Part shown: positions 22,301 to 64,000 of the stretch, piece by piece | How positions within the stretch are numbered: position 1 is the stretch's first letter | Layout of the letters: each line of letters starts with the position of its first letter | Assembly (NCBI GenBank): GCA_030267965.1 | Contig: BRYA01000597.1 | Location: 1-64,000, forward strand | Reading direction: 5' to 3' | DNA from: Triparma columacea | Taxonomy: Eukaryota > Sar > Bolidophyceae > Parmales > Triparmaceae | Length of the DNA: 64,000 nt | Made by a program: the position numbers and the translations under genes | The notes under the pieces: model-generated | Told to the model about the DNA's origin: nothing | Database searches by the model: none | Seen by the model: the letters and a program-made list of their open reading frames with translations, nothing else

Positions 22301-24956
22301 AAGTTCGTGCGTACCTTGCGCTGCTGGGACATATCAAAATTTACCCGGACAAAGTGCATGCATCCCGTGCAACGCCGGTACGTTCTCATCCGAGCCAGAC
22401 GAAGAATCAGGAATAACAACCTGCCAACCTTGTCCCGATGGACAAACCTCACCACCGGGGGCTACTAGCTGCTCCGTCAGTGATGGCGGTGGCTCTGGCG
22501 GCGACGATGGTACCAAGACTGCATGCCCGGCAGGGCAATACATCAGTGAGGGCAGCACCGGCACCGGACCTTCTTCTTGCATCCTCTGCCCGGCTAATAC
22601 GTATTCTACTGATATAGACAGTCCGGCTTGTTCAGCTTGTCCCGACGGAGAAACCTCACCACCGGGAGCTACCAGCTGCACCGTCAGAGATGACGGTGGC
22701 TCTGGCGGCGACGATGGCTCTGGCGGCGACGAAGGTACCAAGACTCCATGCCCGGCAGGGCAATTCAGGAGTGAGGGCAGCACCGGCACCTGCAACCTCT
22801 GCCCGGCTAATACGTATTCTACTGATATAGACAGCACGGCTTGTTCAGATTGTCCCGACGGAGAAACGTCACCACCGGGAGCTACTAGCTGCACTGGATC
22901 GTCTGGTGACGGTGGCTCTGGTGGCGACGATGGTACCAAGACTCCATGCCCGGCAGGGCAATACAGGAGTGAGGGCAGCACCGGCACCGGACCTTCTTCT
23001 TGCAACCTCTGCCCGGCTAATACGTATTCTACTGATATAGACAGTACGGCTTGTTCAGATTGTCCCGACGGAGAAACCTCACCACCGGGAGCTACTAGCT
23101 GCACTGTCAGTGATGACGATGGTTCTGAGGATAACGATGGATCGTCTGGCGTAGACTCCTCAGGATTCTGTAAAAACAGCGCCGACTGGAGTCCGGAACA
23201 TACTTTTTCTTCCGACGACGGTAATCAGATGACCTGCGGAGCTTATGCCGCAATGCTGTCTCTTATTTCCCAGCTTCCATCGGATGATGATGACAATATT
23301 GACATGAGTGAATTGAGCGATATGAGCGCAGGGTGGGACTGCACTGGCAAGTCCTCGACCCTCGCTATGATTGTTATGAACGTTGGAGAGATGGGATGTT
23401 GTGGAAGCGGACCCTCTGCGTGCGATGACATTTTAACTGAGCAGTTCTCTGGCTTTTGCGAAAACAGCGCAGACTGGGACCCACACGCCATTGCTTCATC
23501 CATCGGGAACGGCACAGATATGTCTTGTGGGCAGTATGCTATGTATGTGACTTCAGACATGTGCGAAGCTGATTGCCAAGAAGAAGACGGAGAAGGCGGA
23601 GATTGCAATCACTGCTTAACTGGCGAGGACATGAGCGCAGGCTGGGACTGCTCCAAGAAACCAAATAAGGTCGCCATTATGTTCAGCACCACATTTGGTA
23701 ACACCCAGTGCTGCGAGGGCGGAAATCATGCCTGCCACGCGAGAATCGAATCTATGGACTATGCCGGTTTGTGCAAGAACAGCAAAGACTTTCTCCCTGA
23801 CTACGTGGTCGAGAACGACGGTTTTCGGATGACATGCCAGGAGGGCGCTGCTTTCCTAACATCTCCTGGCGAAGTCTTGGAAGGCGAGGATGTGGGCGAA
23901 GGTTGGGACTGCACTGGTAAGTCTGAGGAGGTTGTCGATGCAGTCAAAGAGTTTGGTGAACATGGATGCTGCGGAAACGGGAAACCTGCGTGTGGAGCCA
24001 ATGTCGACCCCGAAAAAAACAAGAAGACCACTGCCCCGACCCCCGCCCCAACTCCACAACGCGAAAAGATCATCGTGGTGAAAGCTGAGATTGCGCTCTC
24101 CTTGTCCAAAGAAAAGTGGAAGGAGAGCGGAGAGAAGTCCTTCAAGAAGTCTGTTGCCGCGTCACTTGGCGTCGACGCCAAAAATGTGGTCGTTCTTTCC
24201 GTGAGGGAGGTGTTCGTGAGGAGGATGCTGAGGATTTTAACCGAAGGCACACCCAAGCTGGAGATCGATTTTCAGGTCGATGTTACCAAGGTTGTGAAAT
24301 CGAACGAGGAGGAGAAGCCAACCATGACCGAGGAGGCAATCACAAAGGAGGTTGTTGCCGAAGTTAGTGCGGTGATTGAAGATGCAAAGCTGGTGGAGGA
24401 CCTCAAAAAGGACACTGGCGTAGAGACATTAACCATCCAGGTCACCGAGCAGCCCACGGACGAGGTCATCGATCCTAAGATCCAGGCTATGGAGGAGGCA
24501 GACGTCCACGACCAGCATTCAGCGAAGGATTCGTGGAAACACTTTGTCATTTGCGACCCCGACGACGTAGAGGCGTGCGTGCCCTTTTACGCGAGCGTTT
24601 CTCTGCTCAGTCTTGCCCTCTGTTGCTGTTGCATCTCGTGCGCGGTGAAATGCTTTGGGAGGAGTGAGAGGAGAGAACGTGCGGCAAAGAAGCACAAAAA
24701 AATCGCCAAGAAAAGGTCGACTAAGAAGGACTTTGAGCTCCCGAGTGGTTTCGGGGGACTTAGGGAAAGCGAATTTTCCGCCGATGACGATATGTTCACC
24801 GGCGTAAACCCCATGGCTAATTCGGCTGGGAAACAGCAAGACGCGCACAGTGGTCAAACCTTAAAGAAGGGATGGCATAAGGAGCTGACTGACGATGGCA
24901 ACACTTACTACGTCAACGAGGTAACCGGCGAGTCGTCTTGGACGCTGCCTGCATAG
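19355..24956 (+). CDS. YHYH and lamin-tail domain, Cys-rich type I membrane protein with C-terminal WW domain
   Basis: Five exons (19355-19464, 19529-19883, 19978-20260, 20342-21334, 21412-24956) keep frame for 1761 residues. The protein starts with a signal peptide (MKLNLALAFSILGLGNG) and a Gly/Ser linker. A YHYH domain follows, with DGYGIYGKFE near 270 and SVYHYHV near 314. A lamin-tail-like beta domain (SAIVENGNTKGIQIFNPS) lies near 413-590. Then come Cys-rich segments, ephrin-receptor-like CPAGQY...CPANTYS...CPDGETSPPGATSC repeats near 843-1146, and three further Cys repeats with MTCG, WDCTGKS and GCCG motifs near 1160-1443. A TM segment (near 1636-1660) and a cytoplasmic tail follow, ending in a WW domain (GWHKELTDDGNTYYVNEVTG). 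The layout implies a cell-surface or secretory-pathway protein with a ligand-binding ectodomain; function unknown. Confidence 0.88.
22490..23110 (+). repeat. Three near-identical 180-200 bp coding repeats (GCC2/GCC3-like)
   Basis: Within the last exon of the YHYH gene, three copies of a Cys-rich module are nearly identical in DNA, at about 22491-22690, 22715-22895 and 22911-23105. Each contains cccggcagggcaatac, ctctgcccggctaatacgtattctactgatatagaca and gacggagaaac. The middle copy lacks a short GPSS-coding segment. The near-identity points to recent duplication or conversion. Confidence 0.85.
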
Positions 24957-41238: not shown

Positions 41239-44200
41239 ATGCATTCCTCCACATCCGCTTTAGGAACCCTCCTGAACCTCCTCTTCATCTTCCTCCTCCT
41301 CCCTCCATTCCCAACCGTGTCGGCCGCTTGTTGCCAACGACACCAGGAAGCTGAGTTTCTCGAAGCCTACTCAACAATAATTGGCGATAGCTACGCTGAG
41401 GCAACCCAAAGTGAACCAGCCTCGACACTATCCTCGTGCGCAGCCCAGGGCTCTCTCTCTGAATCGTCTCAAACGACTCACACACTCAACGCGGACGCGT
41501 CCAGTTCTTCGTTGACATCAGTATGTGGACCCTCTTGTATTTTGACTGTCCCTGTGGGCGTGACGCTGAACATAAACTCGGATTTTAATATAGCTGCATT
41601 GGAAGTGGCTGGAGGTGTAGTATGGGCCCAGCCAGCGAACACCCAACAGTTTCTTTGTGCGGGCTACATCGCCGTCACGGGCTCTTTCACCATGCACCTC
41701 CAGGATGCCTCCAAGACGGCTTACATTTACATCAAGAACAACGGCCTGAAGCACTTCATCCTCGGCTCGAGAGCCTTTGGCGCATACCAATATGACGCCG
41801 ACCAGCCTGCCGCCCTCCTCGATGTCAACGGGCGGGAGATGAGAAGGACGTGGTCTCTTTTATCAACACCTCTGGCAACCGGATCGTCAACCATGGTCTT
41901 GATGCATGACCCGACGGAGATGGGTTGGAGCACTGGAGATCGCATATTAATCTCTCCAACCCAGCGATCCGGAAGTCAGGGCGAAGCCGAAGCCTTCTCG
42001 ATCATTAACATTTCTGGAAACATATTAACTCTGTCCAGTCCCGCTCAGCAGAACTTCGATGCGACTTTCAAAGCTCGCAACGGACTAGTTGCGACAAAGT
42101 CTGCGGAGGTTATCAACCTGTCCAGAAACCTCGTTATTACTGGCGACGAATTTGAGAACGTGGCTTGTGACGACTCTCTCACAGATGACTTCGGGGAAGG
42201 TATAACCGGGGAAGGCTGCCTGTGCACGAGCATCAGGTCTACCTGTACCGTGGGACTGCATACCATAGCGAGCAATAACGCGGTTCTCAAGTTGCAGAAC
42301 GCCCGGCTCGAGCGATGCGGGCAGCGAGGTATTGCCGGGAAGTACTGCGCCCACTTACACCGCCTCTCTAATTCACCAGATTCGATAATCCGAAACAACG
42401 CCTTCGAGCACAGTATGCAAAGGGGCGTCGTCATACACGGAACCCACCGCTCAACGATATCGCACAATGTCTTTAGCGACGTCAGAGGCGCTGCCATGTA
42501 TATTGAGGACGGCAACGAGATGCTCAACAACCTAGACTACAACGTCGCAATATGTCCGTGGAGACTTGGCGATAGTGAGAAGTGGGGCTGCACGATCCCG
42601 GGCACGTCAAATAACGAGGCCGACACATCTCTGAACCAGGCTGGCGTTTGGGCTCTTTCGCCGACTAATAACATGTTGGGAAATCGCTTCTCGAACTCCT
42701 TTAACGGAATGCTTTACGAGACGAATGCGTTTGGCGGGAATGGACGCCAGTTCTCGGAGAACAAGGCGTGTACGGTGTTTCAGCCCATGGGTCGCATCGA
42801 AGGCAACACCTTCCATTCTCACGGTCGCTTCGGCACGTACCTTCTCTCGAGCACTTGGCCCAAGCAGCACGACATTGCAGCGCTTCTCGCAAATGACGGC
42901 CAGAAAATCTCAGACCCGAACTCCTGCACCGGATGGACAGACGATGGCACTGATCGTGGATGGCCTTCGACCCTGAAGAACAATGTCGACTATCACAACA
43001 CGTTTGTCGGTCAGTACGATGCTGGGGATGTCATGTACGAGAATCACTTCTCCGAATCCAACAACTGCTTGATTTACTGGAAGACTTCGAAGGACTTTGC
43101 GGATGGCTGCAGTTCCCACCTAAAGGGAGGTTATTACAGCAACGGCGCAATGAACTTGCCGGATCAAGGGGCGTTCATCATAGAGGATACGACCTTCGAA
43201 ACCAACGTCGTCTTCGAGGCGAACCACCACTGTAACATTGGCGTTACAGGAATGTTGTGCGCTCCGACATACGTCTTCGATCGAGTAACATTCGTCAAGC
43301 CTGATTTCAGGTTCTACTGGGCAGACGACCTCACCAGCGACAACATGGCCGAGGCGGCCGTCTTTGTCATGGCTCCGGATTGGTCAGCTAGCGATGGCGA
43401 CGACTCAACCCCTTTCCCTTCTCCGCACATTTCCCTCGCCTCTTCAAAATACAGTAGCTTTTTACTTAGTTACGACTCGCTGAGCACCTGCGTAACTTCT
43501 ACATCACTCGGTGTCGGAAACCGTTTCACCCAGGGAATCCTGTGCTCGAAGCCACTCCGGGTGATGAAGATATGGACATTCGATCAAGACGAGGCCACTG
43601 CCCCTCCCCTCGAGGTGGAGATATGGAGAGACGCAGAACTTATCTTAACGGCGTCGACCAAGCTGTACGCAATTGGAAGCCCGACGGGCAGAAAGCAGGG
43701 TTACCGCTTCCCGGTGGTGCTCGATGACCACGCTAGCGAGTACAGAATAAAGTTAGAGGGCGGGTTGGATATTCCGGACGACTGGGTGATTGAGTTCAGC
43801 GATCCCGTGTTCGGAAACCGTTGGAGCGAAGAGACTCTAAAATTTCAGGCTCAGGGGAGATCGTGCTCTGGGGGTACCATTAGCTCGCAGCACGACAGGA
43901 AGTGGGTTTTCTCGAGCTCCTCAGAATTTATGGGCGACAACGCCAGGGGAAGGGGGGCTTGCAGTGCTCACTCGGATTCGAGTCCCGTAGACTGTGCCAA
44001 CGTCGACGCTATTGAACTTCTCTCATGCGAGGCAGAATGCAACGGGGGGACAGGGTGCAGTGGAAATTCTTTCTGCGAGTGTGGAAGCGGAGGAAACTGC
44101 AAGTGCGAAGCTGGCTTCTCGGGGGAAAGTTGCGAAATCGATATTTGCCAAGAAGTGAATTGCGGGCCGCACGGCCATTGCAGTGCGAGGTATCTCGGAG

Positions 44201-45411
44201 GAGATCTTTTACCCACAAAGGCGCAGTGTGTGTGCGACGAGAACTGGCTGGGCGACGTCTGCGATAAAAATCCTTGCGATGCCGTGTCATCAGATCAGTG
44301 CGGGAGTGGAGTTTGCGTCAACCTGAACGAGAATGAGTCGGCTTGCGAATGTTTCGACGGCTGGTCCGGGTCAGATTGCTCGGACACATGCGTTGGTTTT
44401 TGTAAGGGAGAATTCCCACATAGTTGCAATAAGTTTGGAGGAACGTACGTGTACTGCAACGGTGGCGGAGGCTGCATGTACCAGGACGAGGGCGGACAGC
44501 GCGACAATTGGTGCTTGATGGTAGGCGGTGGCGAGGGCGGTGGACTCGGTGGAGGTGAGAAGAGCAGCCCCGCTCCGACCCCCCAAGGTGTAGAAGACAA
44601 GTGTGACTGCCAGCGAGAATGCAACGGTGACATTCCGAAAGACTACTTGTGGTGCTCGACCACCGGGGGATGCTCCTACGAGGACGTCTACACGAGCAAG
44701 GGCGAAGACTGGTGCCTCTTCAAAGGGGCTCCTCCAACATCGGCCCCAACACCCGCGCCTGTCCCCTGCGAGGATGTGTGTTCTCCGAATCCCTGTGCCA
44801 AGTCCAACCCGAACGAGTACCTCTGGTGCTCGTCTTGGGGCGGCTGCTCCTACCAGAGTTTTTACGAGGAGAAAAACGAGCAGTGGTGTCTCTATTCGGG
44901 CAGTGCCCCGACCGAGAGCCCCACGAATGCTCCCACTGTGTCGCCAACAACAGCAGCCCCGACAACGAAGTCGCCCACGAAGGCACCTTCACAAGCCCCC
45001 TCCACGGCCCCGACGACGAAGTCGCCAACGAAGGCACCTTCAAAAGCCCCCTCCACGGCTCCGACCGTCGCTCCAACAACACCTAACCCTACGTCGGCGA
45101 AGGCCCCTACGAAGGCCCCTACTTCGTCCACCTCAAGTCCGACATCACCGCCTACCTTCCTCTCAATTCACGAGCAAGAAGAGTTCAACATCCTGGACTT
45201 TGCGAAGGACAGCTGCGATGACATTGATTTTGACTGCGCTTTTCAGTTCTTGATCCCGGGAGGCCTGCTTTTTCTTGGCGTCGCAATTTGTTGCTGCGCT
45301 TGCCGCCAAAAATGCAAGGTCGAGAAGCAGTCTTCGGAGCTGCAGAACCTCGAGGCTGAAATGACCTACATGGACAATCCGATAGGCGACAATCATCGCA
45401 AGTTTGTGTAA
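41239..45411 (+). CDS. G8 and parallel beta-helix, EGF-like, single-pass membrane protein
   Basis: Intronless, 1390 residues from ATG at 41239. A signal peptide (about 1-29, ending TVSA) is followed by a G8-like block (VPVGVTLNINSDFNIAALEV, near 104). A right-handed parallel beta-helix region comes next, with the HSMQRGVVIHGTHRSTISHN segment near 394 that is typical of the CEMIP/TMEM2/fibrocystin-like group. EGF-like modules follow (CKCEAGFSGESCE, CVCDENWLGDVCD, CECFDGWSGSDCSD; about 920-1050). Three Cys-rich repeats ending NWCLM, DWCLF and QWCLY and a Thr/Pro-rich stalk of APTTKSPTKAPS units come before a TM helix (IPGGLLFLGVAICCCAC) and a short tail. Animal relatives bind or degrade hyaluronan; here only a cell-surface glycan-related role is inferred. 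Two copies of a dispersed repeat flank the gene. Confidence 0.88.
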   Translation: MHSSTSALGTLLNLLFIFLLLPPFPTVSAACCQRHQEAEFLEAYSTIIGDSYAEATQSEPASTLSSCAAQGSLSESSQTTHTLNADASSSSLTSVCGPSCILTVPVGVTLNINSDFNIAALEVAGGVVWAQPANTQQFLCAGYIAVTGSFTMHLQDASKTAYIYIKNNGLKHFILGSRAFGAYQYDADQPAALLDVNGREMRRTWSLLSTPLATGSSTMVLMHDPTEMGWSTGDRILISPTQRSGSQGEAEAFSIINISGNILTLSSPAQQNFDATFKARNGLVATKSAEVINLSRNLVITGDEFENVACDDSLTDDFGEGITGEGCLCTSIRSTCTVGLHTIASNNAVLKLQNARLERCGQRGIAGKYCAHLHRLSNSPDSIIRNNAFEHSMQRGVVIHGTHRSTISHNVFSDVRGAAMYIEDGNEMLNNLDYNVAICPWRLGDSEKWGCTIPGTSNNEADTSLNQAGVWALSPTNNMLGNRFSNSFNGMLYETNAFGGNGRQFSENKACTVFQPMGRIEGNTFHSHGRFGTYLLSSTWPKQHDIAALLANDGQKISDPNSCTGWTDDGTDRGWPSTLKNNVDYHNTFVGQYDAGDVMYENHFSESNNCLIYWKTSKDFADGCSSHLKGGYYSNGAMNLPDQGAFIIEDTTFETNVVFEANHHCNIGVTGMLCAPTYVFDRVTFVKPDFRFYWADDLTSDNMAEAAVFVMAPDWSASDGDDSTPFPSPHISLASSKYSSFLLSYDSLSTCVTSTSLGVGNRFTQGILCSKPLRVMKIWTFDQDEATAPPLEVEIWRDAELILTASTKLYAIGSPTGRKQGYRFPVVLDDHASEYRIKLEGGLDIPDDWVIEFSDPVFGNRWSEETLKFQAQGRSCSGGTISSQHDRKWVFSSSSEFMGDNARGRGACSAHSDSSPVDCANVDAIELLSCEAECNGGTGCSGNSFCECGSGGNCKCEAGFSGESCEIDICQEVNCGPHGHCSARYLGGDLLPTKAQCVCDENWLGDVCDKNPCDAVSSDQCGSGVCVNLNENESACECFDGWSGSDCSDTCVGFCKGEFPHSCNKFGGTYVYCNGGGGCMYQDEGGQRDNWCLMVGGGEGGGLGGGEKSSPAPTPQGVEDKCDCQRECNGDIPKDYLWCSTTGGCSYEDVYTSKGEDWCLFKGAPPTSAPTPAPVPCEDVCSPNPCAKSNPNEYLWCSSWGGCSYQSFYEEKNEQWCLYSGSAPTESPTNAPTVSPTTAAPTTKSPTKAPSQAPSTAPTTKSPTKAPSKAPSTAPTVAPTTPNPTSAKAPTKAPTSSTSSPTSPPTFLSIHEQEEFNILDFAKDSCDDIDFDCAFQFLIPGGLLFLGVAICCCACRQKCKVEKQSSELQNLEAEMTYMDNPIGDNHRKFV

Positions 45412-50100: not shown

Positions 50101-53090
50101 TCATAGTTCCTGCCCCCCAACCTCAGAGTTCCTGTTTATCCTAGCAAGTAACGGTGCGACTCTCCTCAGGTTATCCCTCATACCTTCTTCAGTAGCAACA
50201 TCAGCCGGGAGCATGGCGAGCTCCCCGAACACGGCGGGGAACTCACGGCTTATGTATACAAGGGCTGATCGAGCGTCACTGAAAGCCTGAGCGTCAAGAG
50301 AACCTTTACGAATAGAGGACTTCTCAAGGAGGAGAGCTTCTATTTCAAGCTGTGTGTGTGGGGGGGGTTGAGTTTTAAAATGTTTATTTTTAAGATTTCC
50401 CACACAAGTTTTTCAAAAACACGCTTGTCTCACCTGTTCAATCCTCCATCTCACGATGTCCTCAACAGCTTTAACTCTTTCCGCCTCTTTTTTCTTGCAC
50501 GCCCACATAGCCATGGCGTTGACTTCTGGTAGTTTCCCCCCCTCACCTTGAATATCTTTCATCCTCTCCACCAATTTACCGACGACTTCCCTCCCACAGT
50601 CTCTCTTCAGTGCAACCTCAACAGCTCTGTCCCCCTCCTTATTAGAGACCGCTACAGCATTCGGGTAAGCCTGGCATAGTAGTTCCAGTGCTTCAACCCC
50701 CACCCGTTTGTAGCACGCTCTGTGGATCGCGAGGTCACCGTCAACGTCCGGGGCTTGGCACTGCTCCTCGGCCTTGCGGGACAGGAGGACCTTCAGACTA
50801 GCTAGGACGTGGGGGTTACCGGGGTTGGCATTGTTGGAACGGGAGGAGGAGCTTGTTGTGGGTGTAGGAGAGGAAGCCTCGCAGCATAGGTGTATAGGGA
50901 GACAACCATCCTGGGGATCTGCAGTTAGGAGACCGACGGGGTTTGCGTCGACTAAGGACTCGATCAACATTGGTGGAGCTGCGAGGAACACGGCGTGGTG
51001 GAGGGCGAGATAACCATTTGCGTCTAAAGTTGGTGCGAATATCGAGTGTGATTGGACATGGGTGTTAGGTGACTCTTCGACAGGAAGGTTAAGTGTTAAC
51101 CCACTACAGCTTCTTGTTGTCATGTGTATGTTCCTCAGTATGGTCGTTTGGCAGCCATTTGACACTTGCTGGCGTTAAATCATAGCGCGTGTCTCCGAAA
51201 TGCACGTCGCATATCATAAACCAGTTGCTGTTGTGGGTTATCTCTTCATCGGAACGAACAAAAACAAACAGCGACGAAAAAGAAATCACGCCGACCAACT
51301 TCTTTACATCTTACCTGCATCATCGTGGTGGGCGGTGAGAGGCAGGGAAACGCGCGTGTTAGATTCCTCGGCGTTCGTCCTGTGTTTGTAACCATAATAT
51401 TCTTGCGTATTTGTTTGTTGTATATTGTTCCTCAGTATGGTCGTTTGGCAGCCATTTTGCGCTTGCTGGCGTTTAATCATAGCGCGTGTCTCCGAAATGC
51501 ACGTCGCATATCATACCTCACCAATTGTGGGTTACCTCTTCATCGGAACGAACAAAAACAAACAGCGACGAAAACGAAATCACGCCGACCCACTTCTTTA
51601 CATCTTACCTGCATGATCGTGGTAGGCGGTGTGAAGCAGGGGAACGCGCGTGTTAGATTCCTTGGCTTTTGTCCCGTGTAACCATATTACTCTTGAGTAT
51701 TGTTTGTCGTATATTGTTCCTCAGGATGGTTGTTTGGCAGCCATTTACCAGTTACTGGCGTTTAATCATAGCGCGTGTCTCCGAAATGCACGTCGCATAT
51801 CATACCCAACCAAAACCTTATGGGTTATCTCTTCATCGGAACGTACAAAAACAAACAGCCACGAAAAGGAAATCACGCTGACCCACTTCTTCACATCTTA
51901 CCTGCTCATCGTGGTGGGCAGTGAGAAGCAGGGAAACGCGCGTGTTAGATTCCTTGTCGTTTGTCCCGTGTAACCATATTACTCCGAGTGTTTGTTTGTT
52001 GTATATTGTTCCTCAGGATGGTTGTTTGGCAGCCATTTACCATTTGCTGGCGTTTAATCATAGCGCGTGTCTCCGAAATGCACGTCGCATATCATACTCC
52101 AAGAAGTCATATGGGTTGTCTCTTCATCGGAACGTACAAAAACAAACAGCGACGAAAACGAAATCACACCGACCAAACACTTCTCATCTTACCTGCATGA
52201 TCGTGGTAGGCGGTGTGAAGCAGGGGAACGCGCGTGTTAGATTCCTCGGCGTTTGACCTGTGTTTGTAACCATATTATTCTCGAGTATTTGTTTGTTGTG
52301 TATTGTTCCTCAGTATGGTCGTTTGGCAGCCATTTAGCGTTTGCTGGCGTTAAATCATAGCGCGTGTCTCCGAAATGCACGTCGCATATCATATCACCTG
52401 ATACATTGTGGGTTATCTCTTCATCGGAAAGTACAAAAACAAACAGCGACGAAAACGAAATCACGCGTGTATGCTGACCCACTTCTTTACATCTTACCTG
52501 AATCATCGTGGGGGGCAGTGAGAAGCAGGGAAACGCGCGTGTTAGATTCCTTGTCGTTTGTCCCGTGTAACCATATTACTCTTGAGTATTGTTTGTTGTG
52601 TATTGTTCCTCAGGATGGTTGTTTGGCAGCCATTTGAAGCTTGCTGGCGTTTAATCATAGCGCGTGTCTCCGAAATGCACGTCGCATATCATAAGCACTG
52701 AAGGCTTATGGGTTGTCTCTTCATCGGAACAAACAAAAGAAAACCATCTTACCTTCATCATTGTGTGGAGTTTTTGTACATGACATATGACGACCCAACC
52801 GTGTTAGTGAAAGTGAAACAGTATAGTTTTCAACCTCCCCCCTCTCCCTAGCCCCCCCCTTCCCTCACCCCTTCTCCTTGTCTCTCTCAATATTCCTCAC
52901 CTGGTACCCTAGCAGTCCTTGGTTCGTTCATAACAGCTGCGTGAGCAGCTACGAACTTCATTGCGGTTACCAGCGCCAATAGATCATCCCCGTCTTGCGG
53001 TACCTGGGAACCTTGGGTTGCTACTGATGGGCGGGCTGGGGTCTTTTGACGACTACGGGAACTTGGGATGGGGGGGGGGGAGAGGGACAT
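50101..53090 (-). CDS. Ankyrin-like repeat protein; host of the intronic array
   Basis: Three exons (52901-53090, 50434-51074, 50349 down to 50101) keep frame for 359 residues. The N terminus (MSLSPPPIPSSRSRQKTPAR) is disordered, then a short helix. The middle exon carries ankyrin-like repeats (LDANGYLALHHAVFLAAPPM, DGCLPIHLCCEA, DGDLAIHRACYK) spaced irregularly with a Ser-rich insertion. The C terminus is helical. Partner unknown. Intron 2 is 84 nt, but intron 1 is 1826 nt, far longer than any other intron here, and contains the tandem array. The exon 2 border chosen (acceptor GAAG at 51075) is the one that keeps phase with exon 1; it has a modest pyrimidine tract, so the precise border is the weak point. 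Confidence 0.75.
51130..51255 (-). ncRNA. Candidate structured RNA, unit 1 (snoRNA-like)
   Basis: On the minus strand it opens GTTCC-GATGAAG and closes CTGA-GGAAC, a perfect 5-bp terminal stem with C-like and D-like boxes just inside. The internal hairpin is GCG-A-CGTG / CACG-CGC with an 11-nt loop. Variable tracts: CAACAGCAACTGGTT before TATGATATG, and CAAGTGTC after CGCCAG. This is the last unit before the ankyrin-gene exon 2. Confidence 0.5.
51427..51549 (-). ncRNA. Candidate structured RNA, unit 2 (snoRNA-like)
   Basis: Same architecture with an intact GTTCC/GGAAC closing stem; 123 nt. Variable tracts: CAATTGGTGAGG before TATGATATG (3 nt shorter than in unit 1, and with a stop in the frame that is open in unit 1), and CAAGCGCA after CGCCAG. 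Confidence 0.5.
51716..51842 (-). ncRNA. Candidate structured RNA, unit 3 (snoRNA-like)
   Basis: Same architecture with an intact closing stem; 127 nt. Variable tracts: AAGGTTTTGGTTGGG before TATGATATG, one nucleotide longer relative to unit 6 and so out of any common reading frame, and TAACTGGT after CGCCAG. Confidence 0.5.
52008..52133 (-). ncRNA. Candidate structured RNA, unit 4 (snoRNA-like)
   Basis: Same architecture with an intact closing stem; 126 nt. Variable tracts: ATGACTTCTTGGAG before TATGATATG, and CAAATGGT after CGCCAG. Confidence 0.5.
52305..52430 (-). ncRNA. Candidate structured RNA, unit 5 (snoRNA-like)
   Basis: Same architecture; the outermost pair of the closing stem is lost (TTTCC opposite GGAAC). 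Variable tracts: AATGTATCAGGTGA before TATGATATG, and CAAACGCT after CGCCAG. Confidence 0.45.
52605..52730 (-). ncRNA. Candidate structured RNA, unit 6 (snoRNA-like)
   Basis: First unit in host transcription order, with an intact closing stem. Variable tracts: AAGCCTTCAGTGCT before TATGATATG, and CAAGCTTC after CGCCAG. Its 5' flank is shortened compared with the other units but keeps the GTAAGATG signal at 52752. Confidence 0.5.
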
Positions 53091-58707: not shown

Positions 58708-61700
58708 CTAATCTTCTAGCATCTCCAGCGCATCCTCATATCTTGCGTCGACATCACTAAAGTCTTCTCCTTCAAGCACAGTGAGCACGATTTGATAATC
58801 ATCACCGTTCTTTTTGCCCAGTGCCTTTAACAGCTTCTTCGCAACTGGGTTCGCCTTCCAATCCTCCTTGGCCTTCTTTTTCATCTTCTCGAGCAAGTCT
58901 GCAAGTCCATCATCATCACCTTTCTCGTACCGAGGGGAATCCACCGTTACCTGCTCCCTCAATTTCTCGACGCTACCAGATTGAGACAATACCTTCTCCA
59001 CGCTCTGCCTCTCCTTATGGAAAGCGTCCAAGTTATCCTTGCTGACCCACTCCTCCTTCCCATCGCTCCCTCTAACCTTCTCCATCTCGCCCCGTATCTC
59101 ATCCATCCTCCCCTCCCCTTCCTGCAAAAGGTAATCCTTCAACTTCCTGTAAGCCGAACCTACTACCTTCTTTATCGCCTCCACATCCCCCCCTCCGTCC
59201 TGGTCGTTTATGCACCGAACAGCTTCCCTCTCCTCGCTCCCCTCATCCCCCGCCAGCTCTAGCGCTCCCTCGACCATACCGTCAGCGGCATCTAGGAAGG
59301 AATCGAAGCTCTCTGTTGACGGTAGGTCGAACGGCAGAGATGCGCCGGTTAAAATTTTGGCCCCAACGTTCGCGGCTTGACTCATCATTCGAAGCCCTTT
59401 GAGAGTCATCTGGATTGTGGCGGCGTGGTCCTTCACGAACTGCCTAGGTTCCTCAATCTGCGAGGTGTAAGAAAATAGGTTTCAGCCAGGGGGGGGGGGG
59501 GGGGGAGCTTGCGCGTCGACGAGAAGGGCTCGCTACAGTATCGCCTCACCTCAAATTCAACCACCGCAGAGAAATCGTAAGAACAGAGGATGACCAACTT
59601 TGCAGTGGGCTCAGAGAGGAAGAACTTCTTCGGACTGGAGAAGAAACGCGAGACTTTATTACCCGTCGACTCCGTTTTCTTCACAAAGGGTATCACAAGG
59701 ATGTAGCGAGGGACATCTGATTCGCCGGTGTAAAAGTTTTGGAGGGATGAAAGCGTCGTCGACACCGTGTTCTTAATTTCCTTCAAGTCACTCACGACGG
59801 TGTCTGTCTTGGTGTGGAGTCCTTTCATCAACGCCATAAGCTCATTCAGCTGCGCCTGCATTGCGTCCTCGCGAGACTTGTTCTTCGCAGCCTCTGCCTC
59901 AGCTAGCTTTCTCTCCAACTCCATGATCAGAGCATCCTTCTCGTTGATCCGAGCATCCTTCTCGTTGGTAGTCTGCGCAATCTTCTCTTCAAGTAGGCGC
60001 GCTTTTTCCTTTGCGTTTGCAAGGTTCCTTTCCAACGCTTCCTTAGCCTTAACTAATTCCTCATTTACGCCAGCATCCTCATCAGCATCAGCGGGGTGCT
60101 CAGAAGTGAGTGTAGGAGCAATTGACTGACGTCTCTTCATGACAGCGACGGCCTTCTTCACTTTGATTTCGTTGGCCAACAATGAAATCCGGTCGATGAG
60201 GGCAGTAGCGGTGGAAGTTGAGGAGGCGTATTCTTTGGAACTCTTGACGGAGGAGTGCTCTTTGTAGGCGGAGAGGAGATCAGTGAGAGAGTCAAGATTG
60301 GAGTCGACTTTCTTGGTGACAATGTCGAGGGCGGATGTTGAGGGAGTGGGGGAGGGGTAGGAGAGTTCGTGGAGAGCTTCGACTGCAAGAGCAGCAGACT
60401 CGACATCAGCAGCACCTCCGCCGGCCATTCCAGCGTTTGTATCGGTGATGAACTGAGAGAGAGTCCGGTGAAGAAGCGCGAAACAATTCTTAGAGAGCAG
60501 ATAATCCTTGAAGTTGTCGGACTTGGAGAGGATCTTAATGGCTCGGACGGAGGAGTGGAGAGGAAAGACGCCTGTGGGGGGAGGGGGGTGGGGGAGTTAG
60601 GGTGTGAAAGGGAGGGATGAGGTGAGGGAGCGGGGAAGAACTTACCGTAACCGTAGGAAGAGCAACCATTAAGATTCAAAGTATTGTCGAGAAGTTCAAC
60701 TATTCTGTCGATGGCGTGTTTGTTGTCTGATAGAAGATCAAACAACTCGCCCTCTTCGTCACCGCCAACCAAGTACGCTACAGTTGCGGCTGCATTAAGG
60801 GATAGGCGGTGATTCTGTTTCACCAGTGGAGCGAGCACTTTTGTTACCCCTGCAACGCGTAGGTATGGCACGGCAAATTCAGCTTGGGCGACATTCATGA
60901 GGAATGTTAGGGACCAGAATTCGATGCTATTACCCCCCTCCAATTTTTCCAAGTCCTCGCTAGCTTCTTTGATTATCTCTATCACGCAGGCGAGAATGTC
61001 TACTGTTGAGTCTTTTGGAGTTAGAAGGAGAGGAGCTGTAGAGGGATTTCGTGCGATCTTGGCAAGAGCCCAAACACTTTGTTTGCGACACTCGGGTGAA
61101 GGGGAGTCTTTCGTTGCATATTGAAGGAGTGTTGGGAGGAGAGAGGGAAAGGTGGCTAGTCCAAATTGGACTCCTGCGCCACCAGAAGCAATGTTCGTTA
61201 TCGCTGTAAGCGCGTACTCCCTCGCAACCTTGTTCTCCTCCCCTTCCTTCCCAACGACCTCAAGCAGACTTTTCATCAGTCCGTCAAGCTCAAACATTCC
61301 CTTCTCCACATCTGCACAAGAAATTAAGCATATTGCTCCAAGTGCCTTCTCCCTCACATCCTTGTACTCCTCCCCTTCCTTCCCAACGACCTCAAGCAGA
61401 CTTTTCATCAGTCCGTCAAGCTCAAACATTCCCTTCTGCACATCTGCGCCTTCATTAGCAATGTTCATTATCGCTTGAAGCGCGCGCTCCCTCGCAACCT
61501 TGTACTCCTCCCCTTCCTTCCCAACGACCTCAAGCAGACTTTTCATCAGTCCATCAAACTCGAACAATCCTTTCGTTGCATTTTTAGCACATCCGATTCT
61601 CATAATGACTCGAAGAGCGAGCTCCCTTGCTGTTTTGTATTCTTCTTCTTCTTTCCCAACAACATCAAGAAGGCAAGTCATCAAGCCATCAAAATCTAAC

Positions 61701-64000
61701 ATCCCTTTCTGTACTTCTCCATCGCAATTGCCAGTGTGAAAGGCAATGCCCATCATCGCTTCAAGCGCATTCTCCCTGCTCTCCTTGTGCGCCTCCCCTT
61801 CCTTCTTGACGATCTCAAGGAGTCCGCTCATAATCCCCTTGAACTGGAACAGCTTCTTAAGATTCTTGTGATCCTCAGCAAGGGCGACAATAGACTTAGC
61901 AGCAGCCGTGACCTTACCCACGTCCTCCCCCGTCAGGTCCACAACGAGCGCATCTAGGTGGTCCAACGAAATATTCTGTATCACTTTAATCGCCTTCTCC
62001 CTTGCATCCTTGTACTCCTCCCCTTCCTTCCCAACGACCTCAAGCAGACTTTTCATCAGTCCATCAAGCTTTAACATTCTCTTCTGCACATTTGCGTCAC
62101 TGGCCATATTTTTCATCCCTTCTAGTGCCTTTTCTCTAGCTTCCTTGTACGTCCCATCTTCCTTCTTGACAACCTCAAGCAGCCCTCTCACAATCCCCTT
62201 GTAGTCGAACAACTTCTTTTGATTGTTCTCATCCTCGGCAAGGGCGACAATAGACTTAGCGGCATCCGTGACCTTACCCACGTCCTCCCCCCCCAAGTCC
62301 ACTACGAGCACATCTAGGTTGTCAATCGAAATGTTCTGTATCGCTTTGATTGCCTTCTCCCTTGCATCCTTGTACTCCTCCCCTTCTTTTCCAACGACCT
62401 CAAGCAGTCTTTTCATCAGTCCGTCAAGCTCAAACATTCCCTTCCTCACATCTGAGCCACCACAAGCAATGTTCTGTATCGCTCCGAGCGCGTTCTCCCT
62501 CGTAACCTTGTACTCCTCTCCTTCTTTCCCAACGACCTCAAGCAGACTTTTCATCAGTCCATCAAGCTCAAACATTCCCTTCTGCACATCTGCACAAGAA
62601 ATATTGTGTATCGCTCCAAACACATTCTCCTTCGCAGCCTTGTACTCCTCCCCTTCCTTCACAACGACCTCAAGCAGACTTTTCATCAGTCCGTCAAGCT
62701 CAAACATTCCCTTCTCCACATCTGCGTCACGGGCCATATTTTTTATCCCTTCTAGCGCCTTCTCTCTAGCTTCCTTGTACGCTCCATCTTCCTTCTTGAC
62801 AACCTCAAGCAGCCCACTCACAATCCCCTTGTATTCGTACAACTTTTTTTGATTGTTCTTATCCTCGGCAAGGGCGACAAAAGACTTAGCGGCATCCGTG
62901 ACCTCACCCACGTCCTCTCTCTTCAAGTCCATTACGAGCGCATCTAGGTTGTCAATCGAAATGATCTGTATCGCTTTGATTGCCTTCTCCCTAGCAACCT
63001 TGTCCTCCTCCCCTTCCTTCCCAACAACCTCAAGCAGACTTTTCATCAGTCCGTCAAGCTCAAACATTCCCTTCTTTACATCTGCGCCACCATGAGCAAT
63101 GTTGCCTATCCCTCCAAGCGCGTTCTCCCTAGCAACCTTGTACTCCTCCCCTTCCTTCCCAACGACCTCAAGCAGTCTTTTCATTAGTCCGTCAAGCTCA
63201 AAAAGTCTCTTCTGCACATCTGCGCCACCACAAGAAATGCTCCAAATAGCTGCAAGCGTGTTCTCTCTTGCAACCTTGTACTCCTCCCCTTCTTTTCCAA
63301 CGACCTCAAGCAGACTTTTCATCAGTCCGTCAAGCTCAAACATTCTCTTCTTCAAATCTGCGCCACCAAAAGAAATGTTGTTTATCGCTGCAAGCGCATT
63401 CTCCCTCGCAACCTTGTACTCCTCCCCTTCCTTCCCAACGACCTCAAGCAGACTTTTCATCAGTCCGTCAAGCTCAAACATTCCCTTTTCCACATCTGCT
63501 TCACGGGCCATATTTTTATCCCTTCTAGCGCCTTCTCTCTCGCAACCTTGTACTCCCCATCTTCCTTCTTGACAACCTCAAGCAACCCACTGACAATCCC
63601 CTTGTATTCGTACAACTTCTTTTGATTGTTCTTATCCTCGGCAAGGGCGACAAAAGACTTAGCGGCATCCGTGACCTTACCTACGTCCTCTCTCTTCAAG
63701 TCCATTACGAGCGCATCTAGGTTGTCAATCGAAATGATCTGTATCGCTTTAAGCGCCTTCTCTCTAGCAACCTTGTCCTCCTCCCCTTCCTTCCCAACAA
63801 CCTCAAGCAGACTTTTCATCAGTCCGTCAAGCTCAAACATTCCCTTCCTCACATCTGCGCCACCATGAGCAATGTTGCCTATCGCTGCAAGCGCGTTCTC
63901 CCTCGCAGCCTTGTACTCCTCCCCTTCCTTCCCAACGACCTCAAGCAGACTTTTCATCAGTCCGTCAAGCTCAAACATTCCCTTCCTCACATCTGCGCCA
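58708..64000 (-). CDS. Armadillo-like repeat protein with coiled coil (5' end outside the window)
   Basis: Minus-strand gene running off the right edge. Exons 60646 to beyond 64000, 59550-60571 and 58708-59457 join in frame (YG/GVF and VEFE/IEEPRQF). The visible N-terminal part is a tandem array of about 43-residue ARM-like units (MFELDGLMKSLLEVVGKEGE...ALGAI) interspersed with a longer unit (DNLDALVMDLKREDVGKVTD...YEYKGIVSGLLEVVKKEDG). A more diverged ARM end follows (SVWALAKIARNPSTAPLLL), then a coiled coil (VKAKEALERNLANAKEKARL) and a C-terminal domain that I do not recognise. A one-base deletion at about 63512 breaks the frame: the 3' part is open from 63511, while 63990-63512 is open in another frame. 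A scaffold role is inferred from ARM repeats only. Confidence 0.8.
61190..64000 (-). repeat. Near-identical coding repeats of the ARM-like array
   Basis: Units of about 129 bp built on ctccccttccttcccaacgacctcaagcagacttttcatcagtccgtcaagctcaaacattccctt recur over a dozen times, with longer interspersed units marked by ttttgattgttctyatcctcggcaagggcgacaa near 62220, 62850 and 63630. Identity between many units is close to complete, which points to recent expansion or homogenisation. Confidence 0.9.

Follow-up and report, generated by a model that had tools for sequence, protein, structure and literature searches.

A genome-wide family of putative intron-encoded C/D-type RNAs with two hypervariable, guide-like tracts in Triparma columacea

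INTRODUCTION

In mammals, SNORD115 and SNORD116 are tandem C/D RNAs, one per intron and in many copies, which are largely orphan and whose copies have antisense elements in common. In bacteria, IS110 bridge RNAs and CRISPR arrays join a constant body or repeat to variable address parts. In Candida and Debaryomyces, intronic clusters of C/D small nucleolar RNAs (snoRNAs) are spliced recursively through zero-length exons, and in Debaryomyces hansenii snR41 and snR70 lie in neighboring introns with a zero-length exon between them (PMC5033589). Here, we analyzed a stretch of 64,000 nucleotides (nt) from Triparma columacea (GenBank assembly GCA_030267965.1, contig BRYA01000597.1, positions 1 to 64,000), hereafter the window, in which six RNA-like units form an array on the minus strand at 51130-52730. 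From sequence evidence alone, we propose, with a probability of roughly 0.6, that these units are members of a large C/D-type RNA family encoded in introns, that each recursively spliced intron carries one such RNA, and that every RNA has a variable, guide-like address of 12 + 5 nt.

The Candida and Debaryomyces clusters resemble the arrangement proposed for Triparma in having one C/D-type RNA per intron and zero-length exons; their snoRNAs are few, mutually unrelated, and directed at ribosomal RNA (rRNA) (PMC5033589). In Triparma, by contrast, a single body recurs hundreds of times, the longest arrays contain at least 41 complete units, and the target tests gave no rRNA target. The family is distinct from known snoRNA clusters in its near-frozen body, its number of addresses, and the length of its zero-exon chains. 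Its one-per-intron tandem plan is that of SNORD115 and SNORD116, but the Triparma tracts differ in almost every copy. The likeness to IS110 bridge RNAs and CRISPR arrays concerns the working principle only, the Triparma units being nuclear and the others bacterial. Introners are likewise dispersed, near-identical spliceosomal introns, often in aquatic protists (PMC9860276, PMC8469720), whereas the conserved part in Triparma is an internal RNA unit with two hypervariable tracts, placed in otherwise unrelated introns. The dictyostelid Class I RNAs are also a small-RNA family, in which a variable region is enclosed by a terminal stem and a motif that are conserved; they have their own promoter element, DUSE, and number 45 candidate genes in Dictyostelium discoideum, not hundreds, and the text searched mentions neither introns nor kink-turns (PMC7919456). 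A literature search, which did not include subscription journals, returned no published description of the Triparma family. The words "intron" and "snoRNA" occur 0 times in the main texts of the two Parmales genome papers covered (including PMC10328945), as do "Triparma" and "snoRNA" in the main text of PMC9860276.

RESULTS

The genome searched was the 37.85-Mb assembly of 789 contigs, with the window as contig C526. A 25-nt core was found at 359 places genome-wide when up to 3 mismatches were allowed, compared with 0 for the reversed pattern, and a DNA search of the genome with the window array gave 67 matches. The sample consisted of 66 fetched loci plus the window. It yielded 232 nhmmer matches, of which 8 cut-off or weak ones were dropped, leaving 224 units (about 62% of the 359 core places) with at least one unit in each of the 67 sources. 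Single units made up 32 of these sources, and the largest array, at the end of contig C66, comprised two adjoining pieces that held 26 and 15 complete units, with one further unit divided between the pieces. In one locus (L071), a long run of N at positions 1 to about 1600, either an assembly gap or withheld sequence, adjoins a unit. The exact core had 0 matches in a viral collection, which may lack records of the window's genome. A first-pass annotation of the window had described six minus-strand blocks of 123-127 nt with an invariant core, a hairpin, and two variable tracts, all of which were confirmed when the window was reread. The genome-wide extent of the family and the AG/GT junction between units (slash, splice boundary) go beyond that description. 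In the following, block refers to the conserved RNA-like part of a unit, and T1 and T2 to its first and second variable tracts.

The spacers between consecutive units are marked by splice signals. The pattern [CT]AG/GT[AG]AG, a 3' splice site directly followed by a 5' splice site as in recursively spliced tandem introns, was present in 144 of 147 spacers and in 0 on the antisense strand; with a wider limit on spacer length, the junction was found in 147 of 153. Upstream of it, CTRAY occurred in 139 of the 144, the median distance to the AG being 47 nt. By eye, the spacers fall into four or more types, all of which keep the AG/GT junction. Furthermore, some single copies (e.g., C209 and C330) match the array over a whole intron, from AGGTAAG to CAGG. 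Since the junction recurs in nearly all spacers, each unit looks like an intron of its own that abuts its neighbors with a zero-length exon. Coding evidence appears to lie mostly, but not wholly, in sense with the units. The longest open reading frame (ORF) beside them was on their strand on 83 of 138 locus sides, with equal lengths on 3. When the 30 longest of 44 listed ORFs were checked against Pfam, 12 of the 23 on the units' strand matched a family above the cut-off. On the other strand, 3 of 7 matched at an E value of 0.001, 2 of them above the cut-off, and the strongest was an aminotransferase beside L056.

The ends of the blocks pair as GUUCC/GGAAC, and inside them a 3-nt bulge, GA, and AG or UG face CU-GA. 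A stem with a 3-nt bulge and tandem G-A pairs is the layout of the box C/D kink-turn, and a sequence pattern of this type was evident in 216 of the 224 units; the final bulge base was U in 201 of the 219 units fitting on the 5' side. Box D (CTGA) stood beside the terminal stem in 221 units. The C side falls into a larger class, GATGAAG (n = 113), a second, GCTGATG (n = 64), and minor forms, and in both classes the bases after GA can face the CU of box D, as A-U/G-C or U-U/G-C. Set against the box C consensus RUGAUGA, one class is NNTGATG-like (GCTGATGTA in 64 units, and others), and the 113 have GATGAAG, so that the letters agree with the consensus in part only. The C-like box of the window units had first been given as CCGATGA, a departure from RTGATGA. 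This was a reading out of register, as the departure disappears in the kink-turn register of GTTCC, bulge GAT, GA, and AG facing CT-GA-GGAAC. A D'-like TATGAT was present in 196 of 224 units, with T1 ending one base 5' of AUGA, and a C'-like ATGATTA, ATGATAT, or ATGATTT lies 3' of the hairpin; tandem G-A pairs between D' and C' are possible. C/D guide RNAs have the same order of C, tract, D', C', and D. An H/ACA-like organization, also considered at first, does not suit this layout: T1 precedes the central hairpin, T2 lies beyond it in the loop of a second predicted hairpin, and the ends are C/D-like (H and ACA boxes were not scanned for).

Changes within the central hairpin mostly preserve its pairing. 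Across 220 parsed units (4 were unparsed), 1505 of 1540 pair cells equaled the reference, and 33 of the 35 changed cells kept pairing, 28 as G-U through a one-sided change and 5 through changes on both sides; 2 were broken. The two-sided changes (twice in L018, twice in L032, and in L043) concern three different pairs. Among the possible single changes, 7 of 42 would keep pairing, and the G-U count is inflated because of shared descent. An alignment of 47 sequences had the same trend with fewer changes, its covariation score being exceeded in 16 of 500 shuffles. In partition-function folding (130 of 214 units parsed), the mean pairing probability was 0.81 for the terminal stem and 0.83 for the hairpin, and the helix around T2 was uncertain, at 0.18-0.19 for either of two registers. 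RNAalifold, applied to 126 units, returned weak structure only, with 3 terminal pairs. At L043:1542-1686, the hairpin region is rebuilt: its loop is altered, and a double change has given CATG/CATG.

The tracts have sharp borders and a nearly random content. In an alignment on TATGAT (209 of 224 units parsed), T1 extends from position -12 to -1, at 0.01-0.24 bit each, and the two positions just upstream reach about 1 bit. T1 measured 12 nt in 142 of 199 parsed units. T2, between GCAA and AAA, measured 5 nt in 179 of 209, was shorter in 29, and was longer in 1. Two variable tracts were thus correctly recognized in the first description, with the second mostly 5 nt long and not 8 as given there. 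At position -8 of T1, 76% of the parsed units have A or T, and at position -5, 43% have T, the rest of T1 being near-random. Pairing between T1 and T2 of the same unit gave z values of -1.2 with G-U and -1.6 without (107 of 123 parsed units).

Turnover was compared in unit pairs with alignable introns among 214 parsed units. Where flank identity was 90% or more (306 pairs; mean, 0.918), identity was 0.283 in T1 and 0.275 in T2, compared with 0.274 for random T1. In the same pairs, the constant block was 0.946 identical where lengths allowed, and it was still 91.6% identical where flanks were about 65%. As judged from these alignments, the tracts have turned over completely while the adjacent intron sequence changed little. 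Some pairs retain their tracts: in L010+2978/5366, where flank identity was 73.7% and block identity 95.4%, 17 of 17 tract bases were kept, as they were in L047+2670/2964, where flank identity was 91.7% (0.84 by a gap-counting measure). In L074-876/1201, 11 of 12 T1 bases are common and T2 is changed. Most simply, function would preserve a tract once it is in place, and the copies that survive would be those with a new tract.

Possible targets were sought in several ways. Exact T1 12-mers had 9 matches in 284 kb of fetched sequence, compared with 6.8 (standard deviation [sd], 3.6) for shuffled tracts. The possibility that T1 is aimed at its own host locus was rejected, with counts like those of three controls and own loci matched no more than by the tracts of other loci. 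Two-part targets were sought with four patterns derived from three tract pairs, exact pairing and a gap no longer than 30 nt being assumed. These patterns returned 0, 1, 0, and 0 hits, and the control of the pattern with the hit also returned 1. If 212 distinct T1 were drawn from an rRNA pool of 5.5 kb, about 33 pairs should overlap fully over 8 nt or more; we saw 4, compared with a mean of 1.45 and a maximum of 3 over 60 controls. The tracts had 22 8-mers in common, compared with 11.9 (sd, 3.9), a value reached in 2 of 200 simulated sets. Since this excess is small but not nil, a subset of tracts with a small target pool remains conceivable; rRNA as the sole target pool is disfavored.

A pattern search for the organism's own rRNA found none, and an approximate yeast 18S sequence served as its proxy. 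In the complementarity check proposed at the outset, this proxy gave no clear excess of stretches of at least 8 nt and a small excess of stretches of exactly 7 nt (87, compared with 67 for shuffled tracts and 66 on the reversed sequence). A complementarity of the constant stretch before box D (CGACCATA) to 8 nt of the proxy 18S sequence was dropped as a candidate; its chance probability is estimated at about 3%, and the paired G (1119) is not the snR41 site (1126).

In the window array, the units are spaced about 290-300 bp apart, and Tandem Repeats Finder reported a single array at 51129-52738 with a period of 297 bp and a score of 2236. The blocks have an invariant core and the hairpin GCG-A-CGTG/CACG-CGC together with both tracts. 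The host and array features listed next are all on the minus strand. The upstream host exon (about 52901-53000) would end at a proposed 5' splice site, CCAG/GTGAGG (52901/52900). After it comes a block-free leading stretch of the host intron (52753-52900), ending in AAG/GTAAG, which from its sequence may be the first recursive junction. The block of unit 1 spans 52605-52730, with T1 at 52694-52705 (GCCTTCAGTGCT), the hairpin at 52660-52685, and T2 at 52636-52640 (GCTTC). Unit 2 (52305-52430) has T1 at 52394-52405 (TGTATCAGGTGA), the hairpin at 52360-52385, and T2 at 52336-52340 (ACGCT). For unit 3 (52008-52133), the positions are 52097-52108 (GACTTCTTGGAG), 52063-52088, and 52039-52043 (ATGGT), and for unit 4 (51716-51842), they are 51805-51816 (GTTTTGGTTGGG), 51771-51796, and 51747-51751 (CTGGT). 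Unit 5 (51427-51549) carries the short T1 at 51516-51527 (CAATTGGTGAGG), 2 of whose listed bases belong to the constant CA(C)AA side, the hairpin at 51482-51507, and T2 at 51458-51462 (GCGCA). Unit 6 (51130-51255) has T1 at 51219-51230 (CAGCAACTGGTT), the hairpin at 51185-51210, and T2 at 51161-51165 (GTGTC). Candidate recursive junctions, each the sequence pattern CAG/GTAAG, separate units 1 and 2 at 52493-52500 (boundary 52498/52497, with TCTAAC upstream), 2 and 3 at 52188-52195, 3 and 4 at 51897-51904, 4 and 5 at 51604-51611, and 5 and 6 at 51310-51317.

The last intron tail (51024-51129) contains CCTAAC and would end at a final 3' splice site, TTTAG/ACGCA (51024/51023). By eye, this tail resembles that of another spacer type (aagctgt...cctaacaccca...cactcgata), which suggests that recombination brings units into other spacer types. 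The downstream host coding sequence (50413-51023) has weak ankyrin-repeat matches just below the Pfam cut-off, and when the proposed host exons are joined (52901 to 51023), the frame stays open (...ARVPDANGYLALHH...). A database relative, P0094, has 99% identity over 75% of the query and does not span the host exon junction. Its N-terminal MSNHTRYS equals the translation of the window intron tail, which suggests that this tail is also present at that place in the related sequence. Neither the open joined frame nor the P0094 match proves splicing at the host sites. Two weak Rfam matches around the array were on the opposite strand and far below cut-offs.

Elsewhere in the window, tandem repeats of 132-138 bp with a conserved unit, probably coding, occupy 61186-64000, and a 210-bp tandem repeat lies at 22430-23106. 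A long open frame of 1390 amino acids (41239-45408) has a CEMIP beta-helix match; its closest relative is Triparma verrucosa TrVE_jg10975, with 96% identity over 89%.

DISCUSSION

Each block would encode an RNA of about 125-150 nt built like a box C/D RNA, whose terminal stem and kink-turn, formed by the C and D boxes, may bind a Snu13/15.5K-type protein. The putative RNA would present the 12-nt T1 before the D'-like AUGA, then the conserved hairpin, the C'-like AUGAUUA, a short second hairpin with the 5-nt T2 in its loop, and box D. The units appear to be framed as complete spliceosomal introns (GTAAG, block, CTAAC, CAG), and because the introns of an array abut with zero-length exons, each lariat would yield a single RNA upon recursive splicing. 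Every unit would have its own address in T1, or perhaps in T1 and T2 combined, and this address would most likely act as an antisense guide. What we infer is that the units are transcribed, spliced in this order, bound by protein, and used as guides. On the patterns seen in the alignments, it is close to certain that these are selected, intron-borne RNA units, and they are likely C/D-type RNAs. An antisense guide is the best inference for T1 because of its place, length, randomness, and occasional exact retention. The first-pass suggestion of a guide-like C/D RNA family in introns is partly supported, by the kink-turn pattern, the pair-preserving hairpin changes, the near-random tracts, and the splice signals; no guide targets were found.

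Several observations weigh against this proposal. The units depart from the standard C/D order in having a hairpin between D' and C', a near-invariant stretch before box D, and T2. That stretch, a usual guide site, is almost constant (CGACCATA in 167 of 224 units), and a hairpin between D' and C' combined with a frozen body is unlike known snoRNAs. An Rfam search of the window gave no family at the gathering score, and the whole-unit folding energy of the six window units was not unusual (z from -1.86 to +0.26). T1 was not more unpaired than shuffled tracts (0.470 natural, compared with 0.476). None of the target tests was clearly positive, and stretches complementary to the proxy yeast 18S sequence over 8 nt or more were found for 28 of 214 T1, compared with 23.7 for shuffled tracts and 27 on the reversed sequence. 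Finally, gene conversion that evens out introns while sparing the tracts could be an alternative source of the contrast between tracts and flanks.

The 359 dispersed core places, the many similar spliceosomal introns at different sites, and the single copies that match as whole introns are what a selfish intron family would produce, and such introners are common in aquatic protists (PMC9860276). The block would then supply what the element requires to be copied or inserted, for instance by acting as a structured RNA, and each copying event would rewrite the tracts, which would not serve the cell as guides. We consider this unlikely. Spacer subfamilies that look unrelated by eye have the block and little else in common, so it is the block, not the intron, that is conserved. 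The identity of the block holds as flanks diverge (94.6% with flanks at about 92%, 91.6% with flanks at about 65%), which points to selection, and two pairs keep 17 of 17 tract bases. Exact retention is also not expected if the tracts were recognition tags kept different by selection, for instance against recombination or pairing of paralogous RNAs or introns. Near-random, differing tracts and the lack of complementarity between T1 and T2 of one unit agree with such tags, but their sharp borders and near-constant 12 and 5 nt better suit a fixed binding site, which leaves this explanation very improbable.

The C/D architecture and intronic location would equally suit conventional rRNA or small nuclear RNA modification guides that share a recently expanded body. 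The mild excess of common 8-mers (22 versus 11.9), the 4 full overlaps against a control mean of 1.45, and the small 7-nt excess in the proxy 18S sequence (87 versus 67 and 66) lean the same way. Yet those 4 overlaps compare with about 33 predicted for a 5.5-kb pool, and stretches of 8 nt or more are not clearly in excess (28 of 214 versus 23.7 and 27), so that conventional guides are decidedly improbable. Protein-coding repeats can be practically discounted. One frame of the core is open (MICDVHFGDTRYD), but length changes, as the first reading of the window had argued, and also stops interrupt its surroundings in most of the six window units. In addition, hairpin changes preserve pairs, splice signals frame each unit, and a protein search with the in-frame block of L034 gave 1 candidate and no match.

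Returning to the proposed family of C/D-type RNAs, a wider and more tentative suggestion is that it may constitute a nuclear multi-guide system. One C/D-derived body would be reused several hundred times with a two-part address of 12 + 5 nt, in recursively spliced zero-exon chains, and directed at many cellular or invading RNA or DNA targets rather than rRNA, with addresses replaced far faster than by ordinary mutation. If the tracts are guides, the sister group of the diatoms would have a very large guide family on a single RNA body in the nucleus, and its addresses could be decoded once targets are known. The chains of introns without exons between them would make recursive splicing a regular route to one small RNA per intron, and the juxtaposition of a near-frozen body with random tracts would offer a direct test of how guide repertoires arise.

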